Shown one piece after another: positions 34,065 to 46,271 of a DNA stretch of 64,000 nt (position 1 is the stretch's first letter; each line of letters starts with the position of its first letter). Under the pieces are notes generated by a model that worked only from the letters and a program-made list of their open reading frames with translations, made no database searches and was not told the origin of the DNA. The DNA lies in assembly GCA_030832085.1 (NCBI GenBank), contig JAURJU010000064.1, forward strand, positions 62,001 through 126,000. The letters run 5' to 3'. The DNA comes from Chitinophagales bacterium. GTDB taxonomy: Bacteria > Bacteroidota > Bacteroidia > Chitinophagales > Chitinophagaceae. The position numbers and the translations under genes were made by a program.

Positions 34065-36356
34065 TTGATGCACATGAGAATAACATTTTTGTTGGCTTTG
34101 TGCATCTCTGCTTCCTGCATTCAGGCGAGCGGACAAGAAAAACAACACAACCTGGCATTTGATACCCTTTCAAAACAATGGGACGAAGCGTTGCCCATTG
34201 GAAATGGAATGCTGGGCGGACTGGTCTGGGAAAAAAAAGGAAACCTGCGCATCTCTCTTGACAGGGCGGACCTCTGGGATGAAAGGCCCATGAAAGGCCT
34301 TCACCGGGATGAATTCAGTTTCCAGTGGGTCCATCAACAAGTTGACAAAAAGCAATACGATACGGTTCAAAAACTCTTCGATCACCCTTATGACAGGGAG
34401 CCGGCCCCTTCAAAAATTCCTGGGGCGGCCATCGAGGTACCCATCAACACCTGGGGACAGCAGTCGTTGGCATCCGTTGACATCAAAACAGCCACATCCA
34501 TTGTAAAATGGAAAAATGGTACAACCCTCAAGAGTTTTGTTCATGCAACCGCTCTGCTGGGTTGGTTCAGGTTTGAAAACATACCCACAGGATTTGACAT
34601 CAACCTTGTTGCACCCCAATACCAAGGGTCTGTGAAAAATGCAGGTGATCCGGTAAGGGGAGATGATTTGTCGCGGCTTGGATACCAACAAGGTGTCATC
34701 AAGAAAACCAAGAACTGCATCACCTATCACCAAAAGGGGTGGGGAGGATTTCATTATACGGTTCGCCTTGAATGGAAACGGGTGAACGCAAAAACAATAG
34801 AAGGCGTATGGACCATTTCAAGCTCAAATGAAAAATTCAAACTTCCTCAGGCAGACAGCATCCTTTTGACAAATCACCTCAATGATGGATTTGACAAAGA
34901 CCATGCAACACATGTACGCTGGTGGAAAAATTATTGGAACAGGTCTGCCATTCGGGTGCCTGACAAGTTGATTGAAAAACAATGGTACCTTGAACAATAC
35001 AAGTTTGGATCGGCTGCGAGAAAAAACGCGCCACCCATCTCCCTGCAGGCCATCTGGACAGCAGACAATGGAAGGATTCCACCATGGAAAGGCGACTACC
35101 ACCACGACCTGAATACCCAGTTGAGCTATTGGCCATCTTACAGTGGAAATCATTTGGAGGAAGGTATCGGCTACCTGGATCACCTGGACCAAAACAAGGA
35201 AAACTACAAGCGTTATACCAAACTGTATTTTGGGGCGGACGGTTTGAATGTCCCGGGTGTCACCACACTAGAAGGGACAGAAATGGGAGGCTGGATCCAG
35301 TATGCACTTTCGCCAACAGTTTCCTCCTGGTTGTCACACCATTATTACCTGCAGTGGCGGTACAGCATGGACAGAAATTTTTTAAAAGACCGGGCATACC
35401 CCTGGATTGCTGCGGCTGCCACCTATCTTGAAAACCTGACCTTTATCGACAACAATGGGTTCAGAAAGTTGCCGATCAGCTCAAGTCCCGAAATCAACAA
35501 CAACAGTCTTGCTGCCTGGTTTTCCCAAAACACCAACTACGACCTTTCATTGATGATCTTCAATTTCAAGGCAGCAAAAGAACTTGCACTTGAACTGGGT
35601 TTGAAAAAAATGAGTGCCCATTGGGATTCTATCATGAATCAGTTTCCAGTGTTTTCCGTCTCTGCCGAAAAGGGGCTGAACATCGCTCCAGGACTGGGCT
35701 ACACGACCTCTCACCGCCACTTTTCCCATCTCATGTCCATTCATCCGCTGGGCCTGATCAAGCCAGAAAACGGAGATCATGAAAAAAACATCATCCGGCA
35801 TTCTTTGCAACAACTTGATAAGATTGGGCCCTCGCAATGGTGTGGGTATTCTTATGCATGGCTTTCCAACCTCAAGGCGAGGGCCAAGGATGGGGATGGT
35901 GCTGCTAAAGCCTTGAAAGTATTCGCACATGCATTCTGCTCCATCAACAGTTTTCATGTCAATGGCGACCAAACAAAGTCTGGGTATTCCAACATGACCT
36001 ACAGGCCCTTTACGTTGGAGGGAAATTTTGCTTTTGCAGCAGGACTTCAAGAGATGCTGTTGCAATCGCATGCGGGTTATATTGAGGTTTTTCCTGCTGT
36101 TCCGAATGAGTGGAAGGATGTTTCGTTCAATACGCTCCGCGCCGAAGGCGCGTATCTTGTAAGCGCAGTGAGGAAAATGGGCGAAACCAAAAGCATTGTC
36201 ATTCGATCGGAAAAGGGAGGGACGGTGAAAATAAAACTGGATACAAGAGGGTTCAATAAGAAAACCTATGGTGGTGTCAAAATATTGCACCAGGAAAATG
36301 GCTTTACCACAATCAAGATGGAGGCTGGTGGAAGCATTGTGCTTGACTATCTATAA
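34065..36356 (+). CDS. Secreted GH95-like glycoside hydrolase
   Basis: QWDEALPIGNGMLGGLVWEKKGNLRISLDRADLWDERP; LQAIWTADNGRIPPWKGDYHHDLNTQLSYWPSYSGNHLEEG; HRHFSHLMSIHPLGLI. Confidence 0.78.
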   Translation: MMHMRITFLLALCISASCIQASGQEKQHNLAFDTLSKQWDEALPIGNGMLGGLVWEKKGNLRISLDRADLWDERPMKGLHRDEFSFQWVHQQVDKKQYDTVQKLFDHPYDREPAPSKIPGAAIEVPINTWGQQSLASVDIKTATSIVKWKNGTTLKSFVHATALLGWFRFENIPTGFDINLVAPQYQGSVKNAGDPVRGDDLSRLGYQQGVIKKTKNCITYHQKGWGGFHYTVRLEWKRVNAKTIEGVWTISSSNEKFKLPQADSILLTNHLNDGFDKDHATHVRWWKNYWNRSAIRVPDKLIEKQWYLEQYKFGSAARKNAPPISLQAIWTADNGRIPPWKGDYHHDLNTQLSYWPSYSGNHLEEGIGYLDHLDQNKENYKRYTKLYFGADGLNVPGVTTLEGTEMGGWIQYALSPTVSSWLSHHYYLQWRYSMDRNFLKDRAYPWIAAAATYLENLTFIDNNGFRKLPISSSPEINNNSLAAWFSQNTNYDLSLMIFNFKAAKELALELGLKKMSAHWDSIMNQFPVFSVSAEKGLNIAPGLGYTTSHRHFSHLMSIHPLGLIKPENGDHEKNIIRHSLQQLDKIGPSQWCGYSYAWLSNLKARAKDGDGAAKALKVFAHAFCSINSFHVNGDQTKSGYSNMTYRPFTLEGNFAFAAGLQEMLLQSHAGYIEVFPAVPNEWKDVSFNTLRAEGAYLVSAVRKMGETKSIVIRSEKGGTVKIKLDTRGFNKKTYGGVKILHQENGFTTIKMEAGGSIVLDYL

Positions 36357-36389: not shown

Positions 36390-37064
36390 TCAGGACTGAG
36401 TGCTATTTTTTTCTTTTTCCAGTGCGCGAATGGCCAAACCATTTAGTCCATATTTCAATATCAATGGAATAAACGCCGGCACCAATCTGCCTGCTATCGG
36501 AAATTTGAATGTCAACAAAAATGAAATTAAAAATACAGTAGGAACTACGAAAGTAAAATACAAACCAAGCCGGATTCTTTCCGGTGAAATTTGATGGGTC
36601 AATAATTTCTTCTTGGGGTTGCTGATGTAGAGCCATAAAACAACATTCATGATTGCAGTCAAAACAATATTCAGAACATAAATGCCGTATGGAATATGCA
36701 GCATCAATTCTGAAGAATATTCTCCCAGCAACCCAGAGCTGAAGGGAAGCAATACGACTGAGAACAGGAAAAGCAGATTAAGCCATATCAGCCTTGAAGT
36801 ATAGTCATTAACGTAACCAAAAATTCTGTGATGAACAGACCAGTAGTAACCCACAATAAAAAAACTGATTACAAACCCCAGTAGTTTCCAACCCATGTGT
36901 GCGAGTGAGCTCCACAACAATGCATCTGTGGCATGTTCAATTACAGGAACCTTGAATTCTATGACAAGCAATGTAATTGCAATGGCAAAAACGCCGTCAC
37001 TAAAAAAAGATATCCTGTCCAGTTGATAGTGCATTTTGGATTTATCGTGTCTTGCCTCTCCCAT
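36390..37064 (-). CDS. TMEM175-family (DUF1211) putative potassium channel
   Basis: MHYQLDRISFFSDGVFAIAITLLVIEFKVP contains the FSDGVFAIAITLL signature; hydrophobic helices. Confidence 0.87.
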   Translation of the reverse strand: MGEARHDKSKMHYQLDRISFFSDGVFAIAITLLVIEFKVPVIEHATDALLWSSLAHMGWKLLGFVISFFIVGYYWSVHHRIFGYVNDYTSRLIWLNLLFLFSVVLLPFSSGLLGEYSSELMLHIPYGIYVLNIVLTAIMNVVLWLYISNPKKKLLTHQISPERIRLGLYFTFVVPTVFLISFLLTFKFPIAGRLVPAFIPLILKYGLNGLAIRALEKEKNSTQS

Positions 37065-37069
37065 GTTAT

Positions 37070-39169
37070 TTAATTTTTATTGGCTATTTTTTCTGCGTTG
37101 ATTTGTTTTCCTTTTGATCTCATCGATTGGGCTGACTCCGTAAAATATCGGTGCTTATCGAAAAACTCCAGTTGAAGTTTTTTCCAGTCAGTTGGTGACA
37201 GCTCCCTTGAATTTTTCAACTCTTTAAAAAGTCTGTCACTGATGACAAAATAATCATCCCTGCCCAAATAATCAAGGTCTGCATCACAAATTATTTGTTC
37301 CAAGAGATTGTTTGGAGACTGGGGAATTTTAGTGGCCATGATCATCCCACAAATTGTTTCAATTTCCTCTTTTGAAAAACCCCAGCCTGGCAAGAACTCC
37401 TTTGCAAACTGACAACCTCTTTCCTCGTGTGACTTGTCATCCCATATGTACCCAATGTCGTGAAGCCAAGCCGCAGTTTTTAGCAGATGCATTTTGTGTT
37501 CTGACAACTTCTCATTTGCGCCCAACTGTTCACATTTTTCTACAACATCCTTTACATGTTCAATGCTGTGATAAACCAGATGACTGGGAAAATTGCTGAT
37601 TAAAAATTGTTCGATCTGGTAATATTTCTCTTCTACAGAACTGAAAAGATCATTTTTGAAATACGGAACTTCAAAAACGGCAACGGGTTTTTCTTTTCCC
37701 TTAACTTTTATGGGAGTCATCTCACGAAATGCAAAATTGGATTTGTTTTTTAAGGCGTTGTAAACAGACTCTGAGACAATAATCTGTCCGGCATTTGCAA
37801 AAGAGCACAGGCGTGATGAAAGATTAACCGCATCTCCAATGACGGTATAATTCATTTGTACCTTGGAACCAATGTTACCAGAGATGACCTTACCCGTATT
37901 CAAACCAATTCCAATTTCCAGGGGTGATTGACCGCGGGTCTTGCGCAGCAGATTGAGCTCCTCTAATTTTTGTTGCATCTCTATTGCGGTTAACAGGGCT
38001 CTTTCTGCGTCGTTGTTGCTACCAATTGGCGCTCCATAAATTACCATCAGTGCATCTCCTATGATTTTGTCAAGCGTACCATTGTGCTTGAAAACGACCT
38101 CAATCATCTTGTCGAAATACTCGTTTAGGGAATCAACCACATCCTTAGCACTCATTTTTTCACTCATTGAGGTAAAACCCCTTATATCACTGAAAAGGGT
38201 AGTTACTTCCAGTTCTTGGCCTCCTAAATTGAGGTTGTCCTCATTCTCCAGTATCTGATCAACAATTTGCTTTGAAACATATTTCTTGAAGGTTGATTTT
38301 ATCTTATCAAGGTGTGAAATATCTTCGAGTGCAATTACCAAACCAATGGCTCCCTTTTCCTCGTCAACCAATGGAGAGATTGAAACATTTACTGTGATGT
38401 CGTCCTCGTTCACGCGCAAGGGGTGATTGCTCTCTTTCAATAGTATGGAATCACTTTCAACCCTTTGAAGCAAATCAATCAATTGCCTGTTTTTTTCAAA
38501 TACAATTTCATAATGATTCCCGACAACATCCTCACGATATGTTTTCAGAATTCCCAAAGCGGCTTGATTGATCAGGTCCACTTCGCCGAACAGGTTGGTT
38601 GTGATTACACCAGTATGAATGGACTCCATTACACTGGTATTGAACCTGCGCGACTCAATCAGCGTGTCCAAAAGGTTGGTATTGCTGTAGGCGACACTTG
38701 CTTGTGCCGCTATTGCTGCCAACATTGAACTGTCATTGTTGGTGAAGGCGCTGATGCCGGTCCGCAGTTCCTTGTCCAACAAAATAATGGCGCCAATTAC
38801 CTTTTTTTTATCTTTCAGGGGAGCTACAATGGAAAACTCCTTATCAAGCTTGTTCAGGGTCATTGGATCCATTTCAACATAACCCTTCTCATCGTTTATA
38901 TGACTTAGCTTGCCAAGAAAACCTCTTTTTGCATTAAAGATTATTGTATTTAAAATTTCATCGTTTATGTTAAATGTAACACGTGGTACGAAAAGTTCAG
39001 AGGTTTTCTCTTCAGTAAGAATGAAGCCGCATGATGCATCAAGAATACTACAAGCCTTGTCAAGTATTTCTTGCAACAACTCTTTCACATTTTCAAACTC
39101 AAGCAGCGTGTTTGTAATCTCTAACAGGGTTTCCAGCTCGAGCTGCTTTAGGCGAAGTTCATTCGACAT
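37070..39169 (-). CDS. GAF-PAS-class III adenylate/guanylate cyclase-HD domain protein
   Basis: GAF-like N-terminus (LDKACSILDASCGFILTEE); PAS (MESIHTGVITTNLFGEVDLINQAALGIL); cyclase (VTTLFSDIRGFTSMSEKM, GTLDKIIGDALMVIYGAP, NYTVIGDAVNLSSRL); C-terminal HD (YHSIEHVKDV...AAWLHDIGY...ICDADLDYLG). Confidence 0.92.
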   Translation of the reverse strand: MSNELRLKQLELETLLEITNTLLEFENVKELLQEILDKACSILDASCGFILTEEKTSELFVPRVTFNINDEILNTIIFNAKRGFLGKLSHINDEKGYVEMDPMTLNKLDKEFSIVAPLKDKKKVIGAIILLDKELRTGISAFTNNDSSMLAAIAAQASVAYSNTNLLDTLIESRRFNTSVMESIHTGVITTNLFGEVDLINQAALGILKTYREDVVGNHYEIVFEKNRQLIDLLQRVESDSILLKESNHPLRVNEDDITVNVSISPLVDEEKGAIGLVIALEDISHLDKIKSTFKKYVSKQIVDQILENEDNLNLGGQELEVTTLFSDIRGFTSMSEKMSAKDVVDSLNEYFDKMIEVVFKHNGTLDKIIGDALMVIYGAPIGSNNDAERALLTAIEMQQKLEELNLLRKTRGQSPLEIGIGLNTGKVISGNIGSKVQMNYTVIGDAVNLSSRLCSFANAGQIIVSESVYNALKNKSNFAFREMTPIKVKGKEKPVAVFEVPYFKNDLFSSVEEKYYQIEQFLISNFPSHLVYHSIEHVKDVVEKCEQLGANEKLSEHKMHLLKTAAWLHDIGYIWDDKSHEERGCQFAKEFLPGWGFSKEEIETICGMIMATKIPQSPNNLLEQIICDADLDYLGRDDYFVISDRLFKELKNSRELSPTDWKKLQLEFFDKHRYFTESAQSMRSKGKQINAEKIANKN

Positions 39170-39180
39170 TAAAGGGATTG

Positions 39181-39522
39181 TTATAGGGTATTGATGCCAG
39201 CCTCTTCGTTTTCAAAAATTGAAGAGTACTTGCTTATGCCCATAATTTTAAATGTCTTATCAACAATTGGGGCCAGGTTGCAATAACCGAGCTTTCCATC
39301 GACCTGCTGAAGCTTTTCAATGATCTCAATGAGTATTGATACACCAATGCTGTTTACCACCTTTGTATTCCCCATGTTGAGAAGAAACTTGTTTTTTCCC
39401 TCTGACATTTTTTGGGTACAAACCGCCGCAATTTGTTCTCCACCAAAATTGTTAAGATAACCATCGGTTGTAATTACCACAATATTGTTTACTTCTTTTG
39501 TCTCTACGTTAAAGCTGCTCAT
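39181..39522 (-). CDS. STAS-domain protein (anti-anti-sigma/antagonist-like)
   Basis: VVITTDGYLNNFGGEQIAAVC...KFLLNMGNTKVVNSIGVSILIEIIEKL has STAS-fold spacing. 4-bp ATGA overlap with upstream kinase gene. Confidence 0.87.
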   Translation of the reverse strand: MSSFNVETKEVNNIVVITTDGYLNNFGGEQIAAVCTQKMSEGKNKFLLNMGNTKVVNSIGVSILIEIIEKLQQVDGKLGYCNLAPIVDKTFKIMGISKYSSIFENEEAGINTL

Positions 39523-39932
39523 AAGTTTTTCTTTTTAATCATTGTAACTGTTGTTCCTTCTTGCGTTGATTCGAATTCCACTGAATCTACCAGTTCCTTT
39601 ATCAACTGTAATCCCCAGCCTCTTTTTCTTTCACCTGCAAGTTTGTTTTCTATTTTGGGTATTTCAACTTTTGATTTATCAAAACCAATTCCCTGATCAA
39701 TGACTTTGATGATGAGTGATTCGTCATCAATGATAAAATGAATAAAGACATTGTTGGTGGATAGCGAATGTTCAAAAGCATTGATGCAGGCTTCTATAAG
39801 GGCCATTCCAATTTCTGCAGCCTGATCATCAGATAGCCCCATGTGCTTGCCGATAACTTCAGCGGTATGGGTAGCAATCAGTTCCATTTCTGGAATGACC
39901 GGCAACTTCAGTTCAATTTTGGGTTTGTCCAT
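39519..39932 (-). CDS. RsbW/SpoIIAB-like ATP-binding protein (anti-sigma/switch kinase)
   Basis: GHKL ATPase boxes: EACINAFEHSLS (N box), VIDQGIGFD (G1), GERKRGWGLQLIKELVDSVEFES (G2). Confidence 0.9.
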   Translation of the reverse strand: MDKPKIELKLPVIPEMELIATHTAEVIGKHMGLSDDQAAEIGMALIEACINAFEHSLSTNNVFIHFIIDDESLIIKVIDQGIGFDKSKVEIPKIENKLAGERKRGWGLQLIKELVDSVEFESTQEGTTVTMIKKKNL

Positions 39933-39971
39933 TGTTGTTGTTTTTTAGTTGTTTTTCTTACATTGTACATA

Positions 39972-42900
39972 TTACTTTTTCTTGATTACCAAAACCGTAA
40001 TGTCATCAGGATTGTTCTCACCACTGAGCCATTCATCAACGGCCTTGATCAGTTCATCCTTGATTTGCACAGCTGTTTTGTGACCATGTAAAGATACCAA
40101 TTCAAGTATTCGGTCATAGTTGAACAAATCTCCCTGTTTATTGGGCGCCTCGGGCAAACCATCTGACAATAAAACAAATGCATCTCCTGTTCCAAAAGTC
40201 CTTTCCTGTAGTTCGAATTCTTCCTTTCTAAGGCCCCCCAGGGGCAATCCAACCATTTGTATTTCCTCAACCTTGCCTGTTGCGGCTACATAGTGATAAA
40301 TTGGTGGCATTGCAGCAGAGCTCATCAATACACGTTCAGAAGAAACCTGAAGAATATTCAAGCTCATGCGCATTGTGCCAAGATCAACCCTTTTTACAAC
40401 ACGGTTCAATTGGCTCAATATTTTATTGGGTAAATCCACATTGATGCCATTCAAACCCGCTTTCGCAATTGATACCATCATTCCAGATATAATACCATGA
40501 CCGGTAGCATCCCCACAAACCACATAAAGTTCTCCATCCTCTTCTTCAAAAAAATCATAATAGTCTCCTCCAATTTCAGTGGACGAGCGCAAAAATGTGG
40601 AAATATCGAGATCCTGTCTCGTTGGAATATTTTTAGGAAGCATGCTTTGCTGAAAATCACGGGCTGCTTTCAATTCATCGGACCTTCTCTCGTTTTCTGC
40701 CTTTAGCCTTGATTTTCGAGACTGGTATTTTCCAAACAAATATATTCCATATGCCAAAAGCACAAAATAGGCCAGGTATGCAATCCATGTTCTATACCAA
40801 GGAGGTAAAATTGTAAAAGACATGGTGGTTTCCTGACTCAGGAGACCACTGGCGTCCATTGCCCTTACATGCAAGGTGTATTTGCCTTCTCTGAGATTGG
40901 TATATTCCTTTTTTGAATCTTTGGTAAAGCCCCCCCAACCCTTGTCTTGGCCCTCCAACCAATAGTTGAATTGGATTTTATCTTCGTTCCCAAAGATGGG
41001 GTAGGCCACTTCGAATGTCAATTGATTCTGGCGGAATGGAATTTTTTGGTTCCTTAAAGCTATCGCGGAATCCTGAAAATATACTCCAGATATCAACGCC
41101 TTGAAGGTGATGTTTTTCTTTTTTAGCGCCAATGATGGGACGTATCTGAAAAGCTTTTCATCCTGAGAGCCCAACCATACAACTTCATCGTCGCCCTTGC
41201 CTTCTGCAAATATTCTGGAAGACAATTCTGTCATGTTAACCTTTTCGAAGGGATATTTTTTTATTACCGGTTTGGGGGTTTCACCAATTTCAAGCGTATA
41301 TAAGCCACTGAGTGTATAAAACCAATTGATACCAGATTGTTCGTTATAGGCAATCGAAAATACCCCATCCTTCACAAGGCTATCCAAAGACCACCCTGTA
41401 TATGTAAGCCTGTTGCTTTTAAGATTCACCGCATAAAAATGATATGAAGAATCATACCCGTAATACTTGTTTGTACCGGCCTGAAAAAAACGAATGGCCT
41501 TGTTGTTTCCAAACTTTTTATCTGCAACCATTTCACTAAAGGTTCCTGTTCCGTCAGGGTTGTACTTGTAAGAAACAGGACCATTGGTGGTATTCAAGAC
41601 AAGCAAACCTGGCTCTGGTTCAGCAAATCCATTGATATAGACCTGTATGTTATTGGGTATTGTCTTTTCCTTCCAACGGCCTTTATCATACGCGTGCAAT
41701 GTCATCCCTTTGCCTGATGAAAAAAGCAACTTTTTGTTCAGTTTACTTTGCCGTGATGCGCTTGTATAGTACTGTGTTTTGATAATGCTCGTCTTGCCGG
41801 CTTTCGTGTATTTTATATTGTAATTGTTTGTTGTTATCAACATGTCATCAAAAACAGATACGTCAGATCCCGCTTCATTAACACCTTGGGGCCTAAATCC
41901 AACTGAACCAAAGTTGTCCTTTGGTGGTATCAACTCATACAGGTCGGTGCCTGTTTTGACAAAAAACCGGCCTCCCAACCTCAACATACCACCAACACCT
42001 CCGTATAAACCATTGGTGGTTGTGAAATATGTGAGCGATGGGTCGGTGGTTATTACAGATGCACCATTGCTGGCAACCCAAATGTCATTGCTCCTGTCTT
42101 CAAAAATGTCTGCCACATAGTTTGATCCCAATCCAACAGCCGTATTTACTATTTTATTCAGTTTCAGGTCTTGGTCAATCAGAATGAGGCCATATTTTGT
42201 GGTAGCAACAGCAATCAACCCGTTTCTTAAGACAGTATTGCTGAGGTACACTTCTCCATCAATGATCAACTTGTCGAGTTCCGGGGTTTTTGTTTTTTCA
42301 AAACTTCCATCTTTCTTGAACAACCAGAAGCCTATGTTTCTGGAAGCCATTAGAATGTTGCCGTTCTGCAGTTGATACATTGATTCGGCCCTGTTGTTTG
42401 CCCAAATTGCCGAGCCGTTGACAAACCTAAACGCATTGTCAATCAACTCAAGCAGGCCGACCCCCCATTGACGAATAAAAATCCTGTTACCAACCCTGTG
42501 CATAATGTGTATGCTGGGGTTAAAGTGCCATACTTTCAGAAGTTTATTGTTGTGGTATTTATAAACTGCACTGTCGGTTTGGAAAAAAACAGTGTCATTT
42601 AAAATAGCAGAACTCCACACGCGGCTGGTAACCTTGTCTTTGTCCGCCAGTACATTTGATAAGGATACATACCCATATTGATCTGCATCATTTTTCTTGA
42701 GGTATCCAAAATTAAAGTTTGAGGCCAAATAAATATTTCCCTTTGAATCCATCCTGATTTTTCTGCCTTCTTCTCCAAAGGGCAACCCTTTCAGGTTAAT
42801 TTTTTTTACGCGCTTGCCATCATAAAGCGCAATTCCATTCAAGTGATTACCGACCAAGACCATACCGCTGGTGTCTTGTGCAATTGTCCAATTGACACCC

Positions 42901-43031
42901 CTCCCGCTTAAGAAGTCCCGGGAGTAGTTTCTAATAAAGAAATTTCCCATCTCCATTGGATTGCTTTGTGCATTTGCAAATTCACAACAGCAAACAAAAA
43001 TGGTCAACAGTAAAACATGAACCTTTTTCAT
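39972..43031 (-). CDS. Periplasmic two-component-type beta-propeller + Y_Y_Y + TM + SpoIIE/PP2C phosphatase (paralogue 1)
   Basis: Signal peptide, propeller repeats, Ig-like YTNLREGKYTLHVRAMDASG, TM helix, then STEIGGDYYDFFEEEDGELYVVCGDATGHGIISGMM...LLSDGLPEAPN...NPDDITVLVIKKK. Confidence 0.92.
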   Translation of the reverse strand: MKKVHVLLLTIFVCCCEFANAQSNPMEMGNFFIRNYSRDFLSGRGVNWTIAQDTSGMVLVGNHLNGIALYDGKRVKKINLKGLPFGEEGRKIRMDSKGNIYLASNFNFGYLKKNDADQYGYVSLSNVLADKDKVTSRVWSSAILNDTVFFQTDSAVYKYHNNKLLKVWHFNPSIHIMHRVGNRIFIRQWGVGLLELIDNAFRFVNGSAIWANNRAESMYQLQNGNILMASRNIGFWLFKKDGSFEKTKTPELDKLIIDGEVYLSNTVLRNGLIAVATTKYGLILIDQDLKLNKIVNTAVGLGSNYVADIFEDRSNDIWVASNGASVITTDPSLTYFTTTNGLYGGVGGMLRLGGRFFVKTGTDLYELIPPKDNFGSVGFRPQGVNEAGSDVSVFDDMLITTNNYNIKYTKAGKTSIIKTQYYTSASRQSKLNKKLLFSSGKGMTLHAYDKGRWKEKTIPNNIQVYINGFAEPEPGLLVLNTTNGPVSYKYNPDGTGTFSEMVADKKFGNNKAIRFFQAGTNKYYGYDSSYHFYAVNLKSNRLTYTGWSLDSLVKDGVFSIAYNEQSGINWFYTLSGLYTLEIGETPKPVIKKYPFEKVNMTELSSRIFAEGKGDDEVVWLGSQDEKLFRYVPSLALKKKNITFKALISGVYFQDSAIALRNQKIPFRQNQLTFEVAYPIFGNEDKIQFNYWLEGQDKGWGGFTKDSKKEYTNLREGKYTLHVRAMDASGLLSQETTMSFTILPPWYRTWIAYLAYFVLLAYGIYLFGKYQSRKSRLKAENERRSDELKAARDFQQSMLPKNIPTRQDLDISTFLRSSTEIGGDYYDFFEEEDGELYVVCGDATGHGIISGMMVSIAKAGLNGINVDLPNKILSQLNRVVKRVDLGTMRMSLNILQVSSERVLMSSAAMPPIYHYVAATGKVEEIQMVGLPLGGLRKEEFELQERTFGTGDAFVLLSDGLPEAPNKQGDLFNYDRILELVSLHGHKTAVQIKDELIKAVDEWLSGENNPDDITVLVIKKK

Positions 43032-43040
43032 CTTAATGAT

Positions 43041-46000
43041 TTATTTTTTCTTGATCACTAAAATTGTAATGTCATCTGGGTTGTTTTCTCCGGATAACCA
43101 CTGATCAACTGCCGCAACCAATTCATTTTTAATGGCCTCGGCATTTCCGGATCCATTCTTTTCAATTATTTCCTGAACCCGCTTGTAGTCAAACAATTCT
43201 GCATTTGCGTTGGGAGCCTCTGGCAAGCCATCCGATAACATTACAATCGCATCTCCGGGAGCAAAACGCCTTTCTTCTAGATCAAAAAACTCCTTTTTAA
43301 GTCCTCCTAGTGGCAGTCCAACCATTTGTATCTCCTCGGTCTTTCCTGTTGCTGAAACAAAATGATAGATTGGCGGCATTGCTGCAGAACTCATCTCAAC
43401 AGAATCATCCTTGATGCGAATGATGTTCAGACTCATGCGCATTGTTCCGAGGTCTACTTTTTTAATGACCTTGTTCAATTGTTGTAGAATTTCGCTAGGC
43501 GCAAAAGCACTTATTCCGTTAAGGCCGGCTTTTGCGATAGAAACCATCATCCCAGAAATGATACCATGACCAGTGGCATCGCCGCACACAACATAAAGGT
43601 CACGATTCTGTTGTTCAAAAAAGTCATAATAATCACCACCGATTTCTGTGGATGACCTTAGAAAAGTGGAAATGTCAAGATCGCTTCTCAATGGCATGGC
43701 CTTTGGAAGCATACTTTGCTGAAAATCCCTTGCTGCTTGAAGTTCAGAATTTTTTCTTTCGTTATCCATTTTCCTCTTCTGAAGGTTTTCTCTGTATTTT
43801 ACAAATAGCCTTACAGAGAAACCAAGTATTGTCACATAAATCAAAAATGCCCACCAGGAAAACCAAGGCGCAGGATGTACCCTGATCGTGAGTGTTGCTC
43901 CGGTTTCATTCCAAACACCATCATTGTTGCTGGCCTTCACCCTGAATGTGTATTTTCCAGAGGGAAGGTTTGTATATGTTGCAAAATGTCTTGAACCGGA
44001 ATAGTTCCAGTCCCGATCATAGCCTTCCATCATGTAAGCATACTGGTTAAACTCGGGGTTCTTGTAATTAAAAGCGATGAATTCCAGGTTCAACTGGTTT
44101 TCATTGTATTTTACCTGTATTTCTTGGTTGTAATCGTCATCCTCGATGTTCAACAATTTTCCCATTTTGGAAATTGACTGAACAATTACACTGGGAGGCG
44201 TGGTATTGTCTTTTATGTTTTCAGGAAAAAAATAATTCGCGCCCATTAATCCACCAAATGCAATTTCCCCCTTGTTGCTTTTGGAAAAACTGAGTGCGTT
44301 GTATTCATAATCCTGAGCCCCGTCATTTTTAAAAAATCCCTTGAATTTTTTTCTGGTGGGATCATATCTTATGATTCCAAAATTGCTGGATGCCCACACC
44401 ATTCCGTTTCTATCTATTGTAACATCATACAGGTACTGGCTGGGAATACCATTTTTTTGGTTCAATATTGTTTGCTTTTTTGTCTTCAAGTCAATCGTTA
44501 CCAGTCCATAACCAAAGGATGGTAAATAGATTGTTTTTTCTTCATCGATATCTGCATAAGTCATGAGCAACAACCCGACAGGATCCAGTGTTGTCCAGGG
44601 AATTAGATTGGTTATTGCTCCTGTTGATTCGTTCCATTTCCAAAAATGCTTGTTGGTAAGAATATATGTTTTGTCCTTTCCCTTGTTAAAAATATACTTG
44701 ATTTTGTCGTTTATTTTTAACAGAGGTGTATATGCTTTCATCTGAAGTTCTCCCGATTTGTCAGCAATCAAAACGGCTGTATCTCCTCCCGTTATTAAAT
44801 CTCCAGCTTGCGTTAAATAAAAAAATGACTGGTTTACAGCAGCGGGAAGCTTTCCTTCCAGGTATTGTTTTGTCAAATTGAGCAGGGGCGAAAAGCTTTT
44901 TTGTCCTTTTGCTTTTTTATACAATATTCTTCCTGCTTTTGAGGTTCCCATTACATATATCGAGCCGATATTGTCCTGGCCAAACACCCATCTTCTTGAC
45001 TCAAGCGATTGAGGATCATTGAGGAAACGGGTAGACTTTTTATTCTTTCTGTCCACCATTGTTATACCGCCGCCCGCATCAGCACCGCCAACCCATAAAT
45101 TGTCCTCGTTGTCAATGAAAGTACCCCAAGTGGTTGAAAAACCCAATGGCATTTCAGAAGGTTCGCTTTTGAGTACAAAATTCATTTTTTTCATAAACGG
45201 GTCATACTTTAGTATGCCCGTACCCGAAGAGCCCACCCAAAAGTTGCCCTCTTTGTCTTCAATAATGTTAAAGTAAACATCCCCGGACACCCCGCTATTG
45301 GGTGCTGTATTTGCGTTGATGTGGGTAAACCTTCCTGTGTTCTGGTCCAGCACCTCTATTCCCAGGCCGTCTATTCCTGCCCACAATGTTTTTTTGTCCT
45401 TTCCCAAACAAACCGACCTTACTTGGCCCGCTGAAATTGAATAGGGGTTTTTTTTGTCGTGTGTGTACATTGTGCTATCACCCGTCAAAAGATTGTATTT
45501 AACAAGACCCCGGTCAGAGCCCAAAATGCATTCTTTTTCGTTTATCTGAACAGATTGGAGAAAAAACATCTGTTTGTCCTGATCATCGCTCTTGAAAACC
45601 CTCTTGGTGAAGCGCTCTGTTTTTTTATCAAAATACACCAGGCCGTTTCCAGAGCTTATCAGCAAATTGTCTTTGCCCACCGCAAGTACGGAAATAAATG
45701 TATTGTCCTTCCAGCGCCCATTTCTGTCTATTGCTTCCGGAAACCAGTGTTGGCTGAATTTGCCCGTTTTAAGATCTAAAACATACAATCCGGTAAGAAA
45801 AGTTGTTATGTAAAGCTTTTGACGCAGTGTATCCTGGTTCAATTGAGTAACGAGTCCAAGGTTGGTGGATTGATGATTGGGAAATCTCTTTCTGAAAGCA
45901 TCCGAAAACCCTGGTTTGTGGTTGATCCATCGATCCCCTCTTCTGTCATACATGGCTATTGTTCCAAGGTTTGAACCCGTCCATATGTTACCCTTGTCGT

Positions 46001-46271
46001 CTTCCATCGATGCTGTTCTCCAGCCGATTGCAATGGATGCGTTATCTGATGATATTGGCTCAAATTTTTTAACACCATAGCCATCATACCGGTTCATCCC
46101 ACCTTGTGTGCCCGCCCATATATAGCCCAAGTGGTCCTGAATAACCGAGTAGGCCGAACTTTGAGAAAGTCCTTGGGCTATGCTAATGCTTTGAAATTTA
46201 TAGTCGGTGGGGGATTGTGAAACAACTGTTGTAGTTTCCAAAAGGCAAAAAAGAAAAAGGGCTAACCGCAT
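43041..46271 (-). CDS. Periplasmic two-component-type beta-propeller + Y_Y_Y + TM + SpoIIE/PP2C phosphatase (paralogue 2)
   Basis: Propeller repeats (GLSQSSAYSVIQDHLGYIWAGTQGGMNRYDGYGVKKF), Y_Y_Y (YTNLPSGKYTFRVKASNNDG), TM, then STEIGGDYYDFFEQQNRDLYVVCGDATGHGIISGMM...NPDDITILVIKKK. Confidence 0.93.
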   Translation of the reverse strand: MRLALFLFCLLETTTVVSQSPTDYKFQSISIAQGLSQSSAYSVIQDHLGYIWAGTQGGMNRYDGYGVKKFEPISSDNASIAIGWRTASMEDDKGNIWTGSNLGTIAMYDRRGDRWINHKPGFSDAFRKRFPNHQSTNLGLVTQLNQDTLRQKLYITTFLTGLYVLDLKTGKFSQHWFPEAIDRNGRWKDNTFISVLAVGKDNLLISSGNGLVYFDKKTERFTKRVFKSDDQDKQMFFLQSVQINEKECILGSDRGLVKYNLLTGDSTMYTHDKKNPYSISAGQVRSVCLGKDKKTLWAGIDGLGIEVLDQNTGRFTHINANTAPNSGVSGDVYFNIIEDKEGNFWVGSSGTGILKYDPFMKKMNFVLKSEPSEMPLGFSTTWGTFIDNEDNLWVGGADAGGGITMVDRKNKKSTRFLNDPQSLESRRWVFGQDNIGSIYVMGTSKAGRILYKKAKGQKSFSPLLNLTKQYLEGKLPAAVNQSFFYLTQAGDLITGGDTAVLIADKSGELQMKAYTPLLKINDKIKYIFNKGKDKTYILTNKHFWKWNESTGAITNLIPWTTLDPVGLLLMTYADIDEEKTIYLPSFGYGLVTIDLKTKKQTILNQKNGIPSQYLYDVTIDRNGMVWASSNFGIIRYDPTRKKFKGFFKNDGAQDYEYNALSFSKSNKGEIAFGGLMGANYFFPENIKDNTTPPSVIVQSISKMGKLLNIEDDDYNQEIQVKYNENQLNLEFIAFNYKNPEFNQYAYMMEGYDRDWNYSGSRHFATYTNLPSGKYTFRVKASNNDGVWNETGATLTIRVHPAPWFSWWAFLIYVTILGFSVRLFVKYRENLQKRKMDNERKNSELQAARDFQQSMLPKAMPLRSDLDISTFLRSSTEIGGDYYDFFEQQNRDLYVVCGDATGHGIISGMMVSIAKAGLNGISAFAPSEILQQLNKVIKKVDLGTMRMSLNIIRIKDDSVEMSSAAMPPIYHFVSATGKTEEIQMVGLPLGGLKKEFFDLEERRFAPGDAIVMLSDGLPEAPNANAELFDYKRVQEIIEKNGSGNAEAIKNELVAAVDQWLSGENNPDDITILVIKKK

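Follow-up and report, generated by a model that had tools for sequence, protein, structure and literature searches.

The window analysed here, a stretch of 64,000 nt from a Chitinophagales bacterium, carries on its minus strand, at 36390-46271, six intact co-oriented genes in its open reading frame listing. They encode two receptor phosphatases, a kinase, a STAS protein, a nucleotide cyclase and a channel. The intergenic distances in transcription order are 9, 39, -4, 11 and 5 bp, the negative value being the 4 bp by which the STAS gene overlaps the kinase gene. A preliminary description of the locus had reported six minus-strand genes with these gaps; recomputation reproduced the coordinates and distances exactly, and each of its domain assignments was backed by Pfam. 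The features, in transcription order, are listed below (lengths in amino acids, aa; TM, transmembrane).

43041..46271, minus strand: receptor phosphatase 2, 1076 aa, with a Reg_prop propeller, a Y_Y_Y domain (Pfam 2.9e-21), a TM segment at residues 806-824 and a SpoIIE/PP2C domain (8.8e-29)
39972..43031, minus strand: receptor phosphatase 1, 1019 aa, with a signal peptide-like N-terminus, a Reg_prop propeller, a Y_Y_Y domain (2.1e-11), a TM segment and a SpoIIE/PP2C domain (9.1e-29)
39519..39932, minus strand: RsbW/SpoIIAB-type GHKL kinase, 137 aa (HATPase_c_2, 2.9e-22)
39181..39522, minus strand: single-domain STAS phosphoprotein, 113 aa (STAS, 4.7e-11), predicted phosphosite Ser58 in NSIG
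37070..39169, minus strand: GAF-PAS-class III nucleotide cyclase-HD protein, 699 aa (Guanylate_cyc 1.2e-33; PAS_9, HD and GAF above Pfam cut-offs), the proposed output enzyme
37682..38209, minus strand: class III catalytic domain of the cyclase, residues 321-496 (Pfam PF00211)
37277..37564, minus strand: HD phosphohydrolase domain of the cyclase, residues 536-631 (Pfam PF01966, 7.5e-7), a putative part degrading cyclic nucleotide monophosphates (cNMP), lineage-specific
36390..37064, minus strand: TMEM175-family channel, 224 aa (Pfam 5.6e-27; bacterial structure 5vre, 2.5e-17), with the FSDGVFAIAITLLV signature

The host genome (2.9 Mb, 98.4% complete) has its sole two SpoIIE domains found with Pfam, its sole RsbW-type kinase above the Pfam cut-off and its sole class III cyclase in this operon. 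STAS domains were found twice more elsewhere in the genome. A second STAS protein (L095, G000:C31:5156-5422) adjoins a gene for a metallo-beta-lactamase-fold, RNase Z-like protein, and is a possible second partner of the sole kinase. Scans for promoters and terminators gave counts no higher than those in shuffled sequences, and the region upstream of the operon was only partially conserved.

Judged from their sequences, three parts of a partner switch appear to be encoded side by side: a SpoIIE-type PP2C, an RsbW/SpoIIAB-type GHKL kinase and a single-domain STAS protein with a conserved serine. The 12 homologues aligned with the kinase all share its E47, N51, D79 and G81, and a single one deviates at G83; the kinase profile matched the RsbW structure 6m36 at 5.1e-22. 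In the STAS motif N-S58-I-G60, S58 and G60 were invariant in 12 homologues, and the STAS profile matched SpoIIAA (1th8_B) at 4.2e-18. Alignment with SpoIIAA makes S58 the predicted phosphoserine position, the aligned SpoIIAA residue being the one that we take to be its phosphoserine. Both phosphatases have a SpoIIE match above the Pfam cut-off, a hydrophobic segment between Y_Y_Y and SpoIIE, and invariant catalytic aspartates (D823, D841, D957, D1009 and D1010 in alignment A5).

The cyclase carries the hexad D328, K368, D372, T442, N449 and R453, invariant over the three lineages described below, so that the metal-binding Asp pair, the Lys/Thr base pair and the Asn/Arg transition-state pair of class III adenylate cyclases are all present. 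Its closest structures were bacterial class III cyclases, among them Pseudomonas aeruginosa CyaB, which has the same Lys/Thr pair. In class III cyclases this pair goes with ATP as substrate, and the predicted product is cyclic AMP (cAMP). No GGDEF match was found in the protein with Pfam. Its AlphaFold model, with a mean predicted local distance difference test (pLDDT) score of 50, was too poor for a structural argument. For the fused HD domain the nearest solved relative was a weak match, 2pq7. A nucleotide-metabolising role of this domain is suggested by its stand-alone homologues, since these directly follow class III cyclase genes at L015, L019 and L021 (Dyadobacter), L016 and L024. At L023 an apparent cyclase-HD fusion is split over two frames. 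In two other genomes (L076:9085-11741 and L079:5172-7835, family f65), a class III cyclase gene is immediately followed by a PP2C gene of about 390 aa, with neither kinase nor STAS nearby.

A scan of one genome collection gave eight assemblies with strong homologues (L001-L008). The order PP2C2-PP2C1-RsbW-STAS-cyclase/HD-TMEM175 was complete in L002, L003 and L006, where the receptor 2 orthologues adjoin receptor 1, and was consistent up to the contig ends in L001, L004, L007 and L008. The gene order of L005 agreed as well, its receptor 2 being shortened internally to 140 aa (L005:4756-5175), with the start of the propeller fused to the PP2C domain either by deletion or by assembly collapse. 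L004-L008 share some flanking genes with the window, so conservation there is partly plain synteny. L002 and L003 lack every flanking gene tested, among them the nitrilase, RecX, GH95 and ThiL neighbours, and there the six genes therefore travel as a unit. The GH95-family glycoside hydrolase gene (window 34065-36356), convergent with the operon, is kept in L004-L008 and missing beside L002 and L003. The operon is thus no fortuitous succession of genes: the conservation of order across Bacteroidota that the preliminary description proposed to examine was found in other assemblies, and an arrangement unique to this strain was not what emerged.

Of 299 genomes in the order, 2 matched the kinase profile, and of 396 in the phylum, 46 did. 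Inspection of 40 neighbourhoods revealed three arrangements. In the first, kinase, STAS and GAF-PAS-cyclase genes follow each other; it occurs in Chitinophagaceae, in genus g282 (six genomes) and in G575, the last two representing two distant families. The g282 trio lacks HD and TMEM175 and is adjoined by a convergent propeller-type PP2C receptor, and the G575 trio, also without HD or TMEM175, by a divergent 7TMR-DISM-SpoIIE protein. In the second, seen in about 19 genomes, kinase and STAS genes are followed by a soluble PP2C and a propeller/Y_Y_Y-PP2C, with no cyclase; at these loci (L032-L049, for example L034:3617-9894) the soluble PP2C, of 535 aa, precedes one or more propeller/Y_Y_Y-PP2C receptors. 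The third consists of more distant STAS-kinase-PP2C sets.

The sensors vary over these loci. The G260 operon has kinase-STAS-cyclase/HD-TMEM175 followed by a TPR-TM protein that is truncated by the contig end, and homologues of this protein on other contigs of the same genome terminate in a PP2C sharing 50-60% identity with that of the window. It looks as though the ectodomain (propeller, TPR or 7TMR-DISM) is interchangeable on what seems to be the same phosphatase-kinase-STAS core. Carbohydrate sensing, part of what was first suggested for this operon, is thus one possible input among several, relatives having swapped the sensor for TPR or 7TMR-DISM. The AlphaFold model of receptor 1 (mean pLDDT 60) was too poor for a structural argument; as a hint only, a Foldseek search with this low-confidence model matched the ectodomain to the heparin sensor BT4663, and the matches of the PP2C part were led by SiaA-PP2C.

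The channel varies as well. TMEM175, recognised by its domain and by the R...FSDGVFAI signature, was present in every Chitinophagaceae-type copy examined, and no homologue was found at the loci of the G600 genus and of G575. Because two of the three lineages lack it, the channel was rejected as a core component; by the gene content of these loci, HD and TMEM175 are best described as lineage-specific accessories.

The link between cyclase and kinase-STAS pair was examined by searching the cyclase profile over 245 genomes of the sampled class. Seven near-full-length orthologues (E <1e-200) were sharply separated from the other matches, many of which were limited to the catalytic domain and linker; a weaker match of nearly whole length (2e-101) was found in G747. 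A kinase-STAS pair immediately precedes each of the seven orthologues, whereas the neighbourhoods of about 10 kb read around 14 control cyclases in no case contained a kinase or STAS gene (Fisher p = 8.6e-6, a descriptive value and not an independent-sample test, the orthologues coming from two lineages only). Neither gene was found within the short contig that carries the G747 cyclase. Conversely, the 20 genomes that have the pair without an adjacent cyclase (the second arrangement and G299) contain no full-length cyclase orthologue anywhere. Kinase, SpoIIE phosphatases and cyclase orthologue are all missing together from G262, G264 and G292, which belong to the window's own genus. The co-occurrence is therefore one-sided: the cyclase is found only with the pair, the weaker G747 relative excepted, and the pair can exist without the cyclase.

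A tree built from joined kinase and STAS sequences placed the cyclase-linked rows and those of the second arrangement in a single group, with full support, separate from the outgroup sets. Three changes of the cyclase label were required on this tree, versus 12.4 in shuffles. An ancestral kinase-STAS-cyclase link with later replacement is likely on this topology, and is graded no higher because the deep branches within the group are weakly supported.

The classical output of a partner switch was also sought. No SigB/F/G-type sigma factor (TIGR02980) scored above the cut-off in the host genome and 10 relatives, and the two best matches of the host to this model scored like primary sigma factors.

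Taken together, the operon probably encodes a transmembrane partner-switching pathway with a class III nucleotide cyclase as its output. A periplasmic sensor, here the propeller/Y_Y_Y ectodomain, would control the cytoplasmic SpoIIE-type PP2C through one membrane helix. The RsbW-like kinase would phosphorylate the STAS protein on Ser58, and the receptor phosphatases would remove this phosphate under ligand control. Dephosphorylated STAS would then leave the kinase and bind the GAF-PAS-cyclase, which would most likely be activated and make cAMP. A probable task of the fused HD domain is to break down what the cyclase makes, or some related nucleotide; in this lineage the pathway may also have TMEM175 as a target, either downstream or in a feedback loop. 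The preliminary description had proposed the adjacent cyclase/HD enzyme, and possibly the channel, as output. The cyclase part of this proposal is supported by the adjacency in three lineages, the one-sided co-occurrence, the controls and the lack of a SigB/F/G-type sigma factor; the channel and HD, missing from two of the three lineages, do not belong to the core. We also propose, with moderate confidence, a wider reading: interchangeable receptor phosphatases acting on one conserved kinase-STAS pair, and through it on a class III adenylate cyclase, would form an ancient route of Bacteroidota linking periplasmic ligands with cAMP. Neither a histidine kinase nor a sigma factor would take part in it, and Chitinophagaceae would have added the fused HD hydrolase and the TMEM175 channel.

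Sigma factors are the target of most described partner switches, and RsbW and SpoIIAB provide the nearest solved structures of the kinase and its NCBIfam neighbours. The operon could thus encode an ordinary switch, with the kinase as anti-sigma factor, STAS as the antagonist of the kinase, a sigma factor encoded elsewhere as the real output and the cyclase no more than co-expressed. We consider this rather unlikely, given the negative sigma factor search over the 11 genomes, the score of the kinase, which falls far under the NCBIfam anti-sigma cut-offs, and the finding of cyclase orthologues solely with kinase-STAS. The GAF-PAS regulatory part of the cyclase and the high conservation of TMEM175, which with 82-93% identity in Chitinophagaceae is among the operon's most conserved proteins, would fit another wiring with two inputs. 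Here STAS and kinase would act on TMEM175 or HD, and the cyclase would be run by its own GAF-PAS part, perhaps with cAMP feeding back on it, as it does in cyanobacterial cyclases of the GAF-PAS type. The loci of the G600 genus and of G575, which keep kinase-STAS-cyclase without TMEM175 or HD, make this arrangement improbable.

A Pycsar-like anti-phage system, in which a cyclic mononucleotide from the cyclase would open a membrane channel, comes to mind because a membrane protein adjoins the cyclase and PADLOC PycC models match it, at best at 1e-25. These matches are confined to the catalytic domain, and the remaining operon genes gave none to any PADLOC model, those of the PycTM and PycTIR effectors included; Pycsar identity was rejected on these grounds. 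K368 and T442 are moreover of the adenylate cyclase type, no recognised nucleotide-binding domain was found in the TMEM175 protein with Pfam, the channel is missing in two lineages, and receptor phosphatases and a partner switch are foreign to Pycsar. A system of this kind is thus highly improbable.

Several observations weigh against the cyclase-output pathway that we prefer. The distribution within the order is patchy, as the two positive genomes out of 299 indicate. A large related clade has a soluble PP2C in the cyclase's place, which suggests that the kinase-STAS pair can work without this cyclase. The model is weakest on the side of the cAMP receptor: the host genome encodes three cNMP-binding proteins, all Crp-like, and the PROSITE-type cyclic-nucleotide phosphate-binding motif was found in none of them. 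A fusion of a response regulator with a Crp-like cNMP-binding and helix-turn-helix domain is encoded at L089:1278-2330, beside a PAS histidine kinase, and also in G260 (L092).

To our knowledge, no signal-transduction pathway leading into cAMP has been described in Bacteroidota, where cAMP signalling is poorly understood. If the proposed pathway is true, it would connect a periplasmic ligand with cAMP by a complete path, add class III cyclases to cyclic di-GMP (c-di-GMP) and sigma factors as outputs of the partner-switch principle, show PP2C output domains swapped onto sensors otherwise used by hybrid two-component systems, and place a bacterial TMEM175 channel in a definite signalling operon.

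Parts of the operon resemble known systems. BT4663-type hybrid two-component systems of Bacteroidota use the same class of propeller/Y_Y_Y periplasmic sensor, whereas the receptors described here carry SpoIIE/PP2C where histidine kinase and response regulator would be. The cyanobacterial cyclases CyaB1 and CyaB2 have GAF-PAS ahead of the class III catalytic domain, as does the operon's cyclase, which differs from them by its fused HD domain and the adjacent kinase-STAS pair.

The operon as a whole had been put forward as an undescribed system. In this general form the claim is too wide, since partner switches acting on a second-messenger cyclase are known from SiaC-SiaD, HsbA-HsbD, BgrV-BgrR and the Moorella stressosome; what appears undescribed is a class III cyclase as the target. 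No described STAS protein or partner switch acting on an adenylate cyclase was found in the open-access literature, and cyclases are unmentioned in a review of STAS-only proteins (PMC8256260). The STAS proteins HsbA of P. aeruginosa and BgrV of Sinorhizobium meliloti control the diguanylate cyclases HsbD and BgrR via a partner switch (PMC5085249, PMC8457831). HsbR-HsbA-HsbD and BgrSTUWV-BgrR thus share with the proposed pathway the control of a second-messenger cyclase by a partner-switch STAS protein, and differ from it by their diguanylate cyclase targets and another receptor architecture. The stressosome of Moorella thermoacetica, as cited in PMC4976288, controls a diguanylate cyclase and likewise re-uses signalling of the RsbR/S/T type for a second messenger; as far as that citation describes it, the stressosome kinase phosphorylates the cyclase, with neither a receptor PP2C nor a class III cyclase.

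The likeness to SiaABCD of P. aeruginosa extends to a membrane receptor with PP2C output, a kinase, a small phosphoprotein and a cyclase in one pathway, SiaA being also the nearest Foldseek match, in the low-confidence model, of the operon's PP2C region. There SiaC directly activates the diguanylate cyclase SiaD, and SiaC phosphorylation blocks this activation (PMC8457831). In SiaABCD, SiaC is a DUF1987 phosphoprotein served by the SiaB kinase, and SiaD is a GGDEF enzyme making c-di-GMP; the operon has instead a true STAS domain, an RsbW-like kinase, a class III cyclase with cAMP as predicted product and a propeller/Y_Y_Y sensor. By analogy, we infer that the operon works like SiaABCD, a STAS protein taking the place of SiaC and a class III cyclase that of SiaD.

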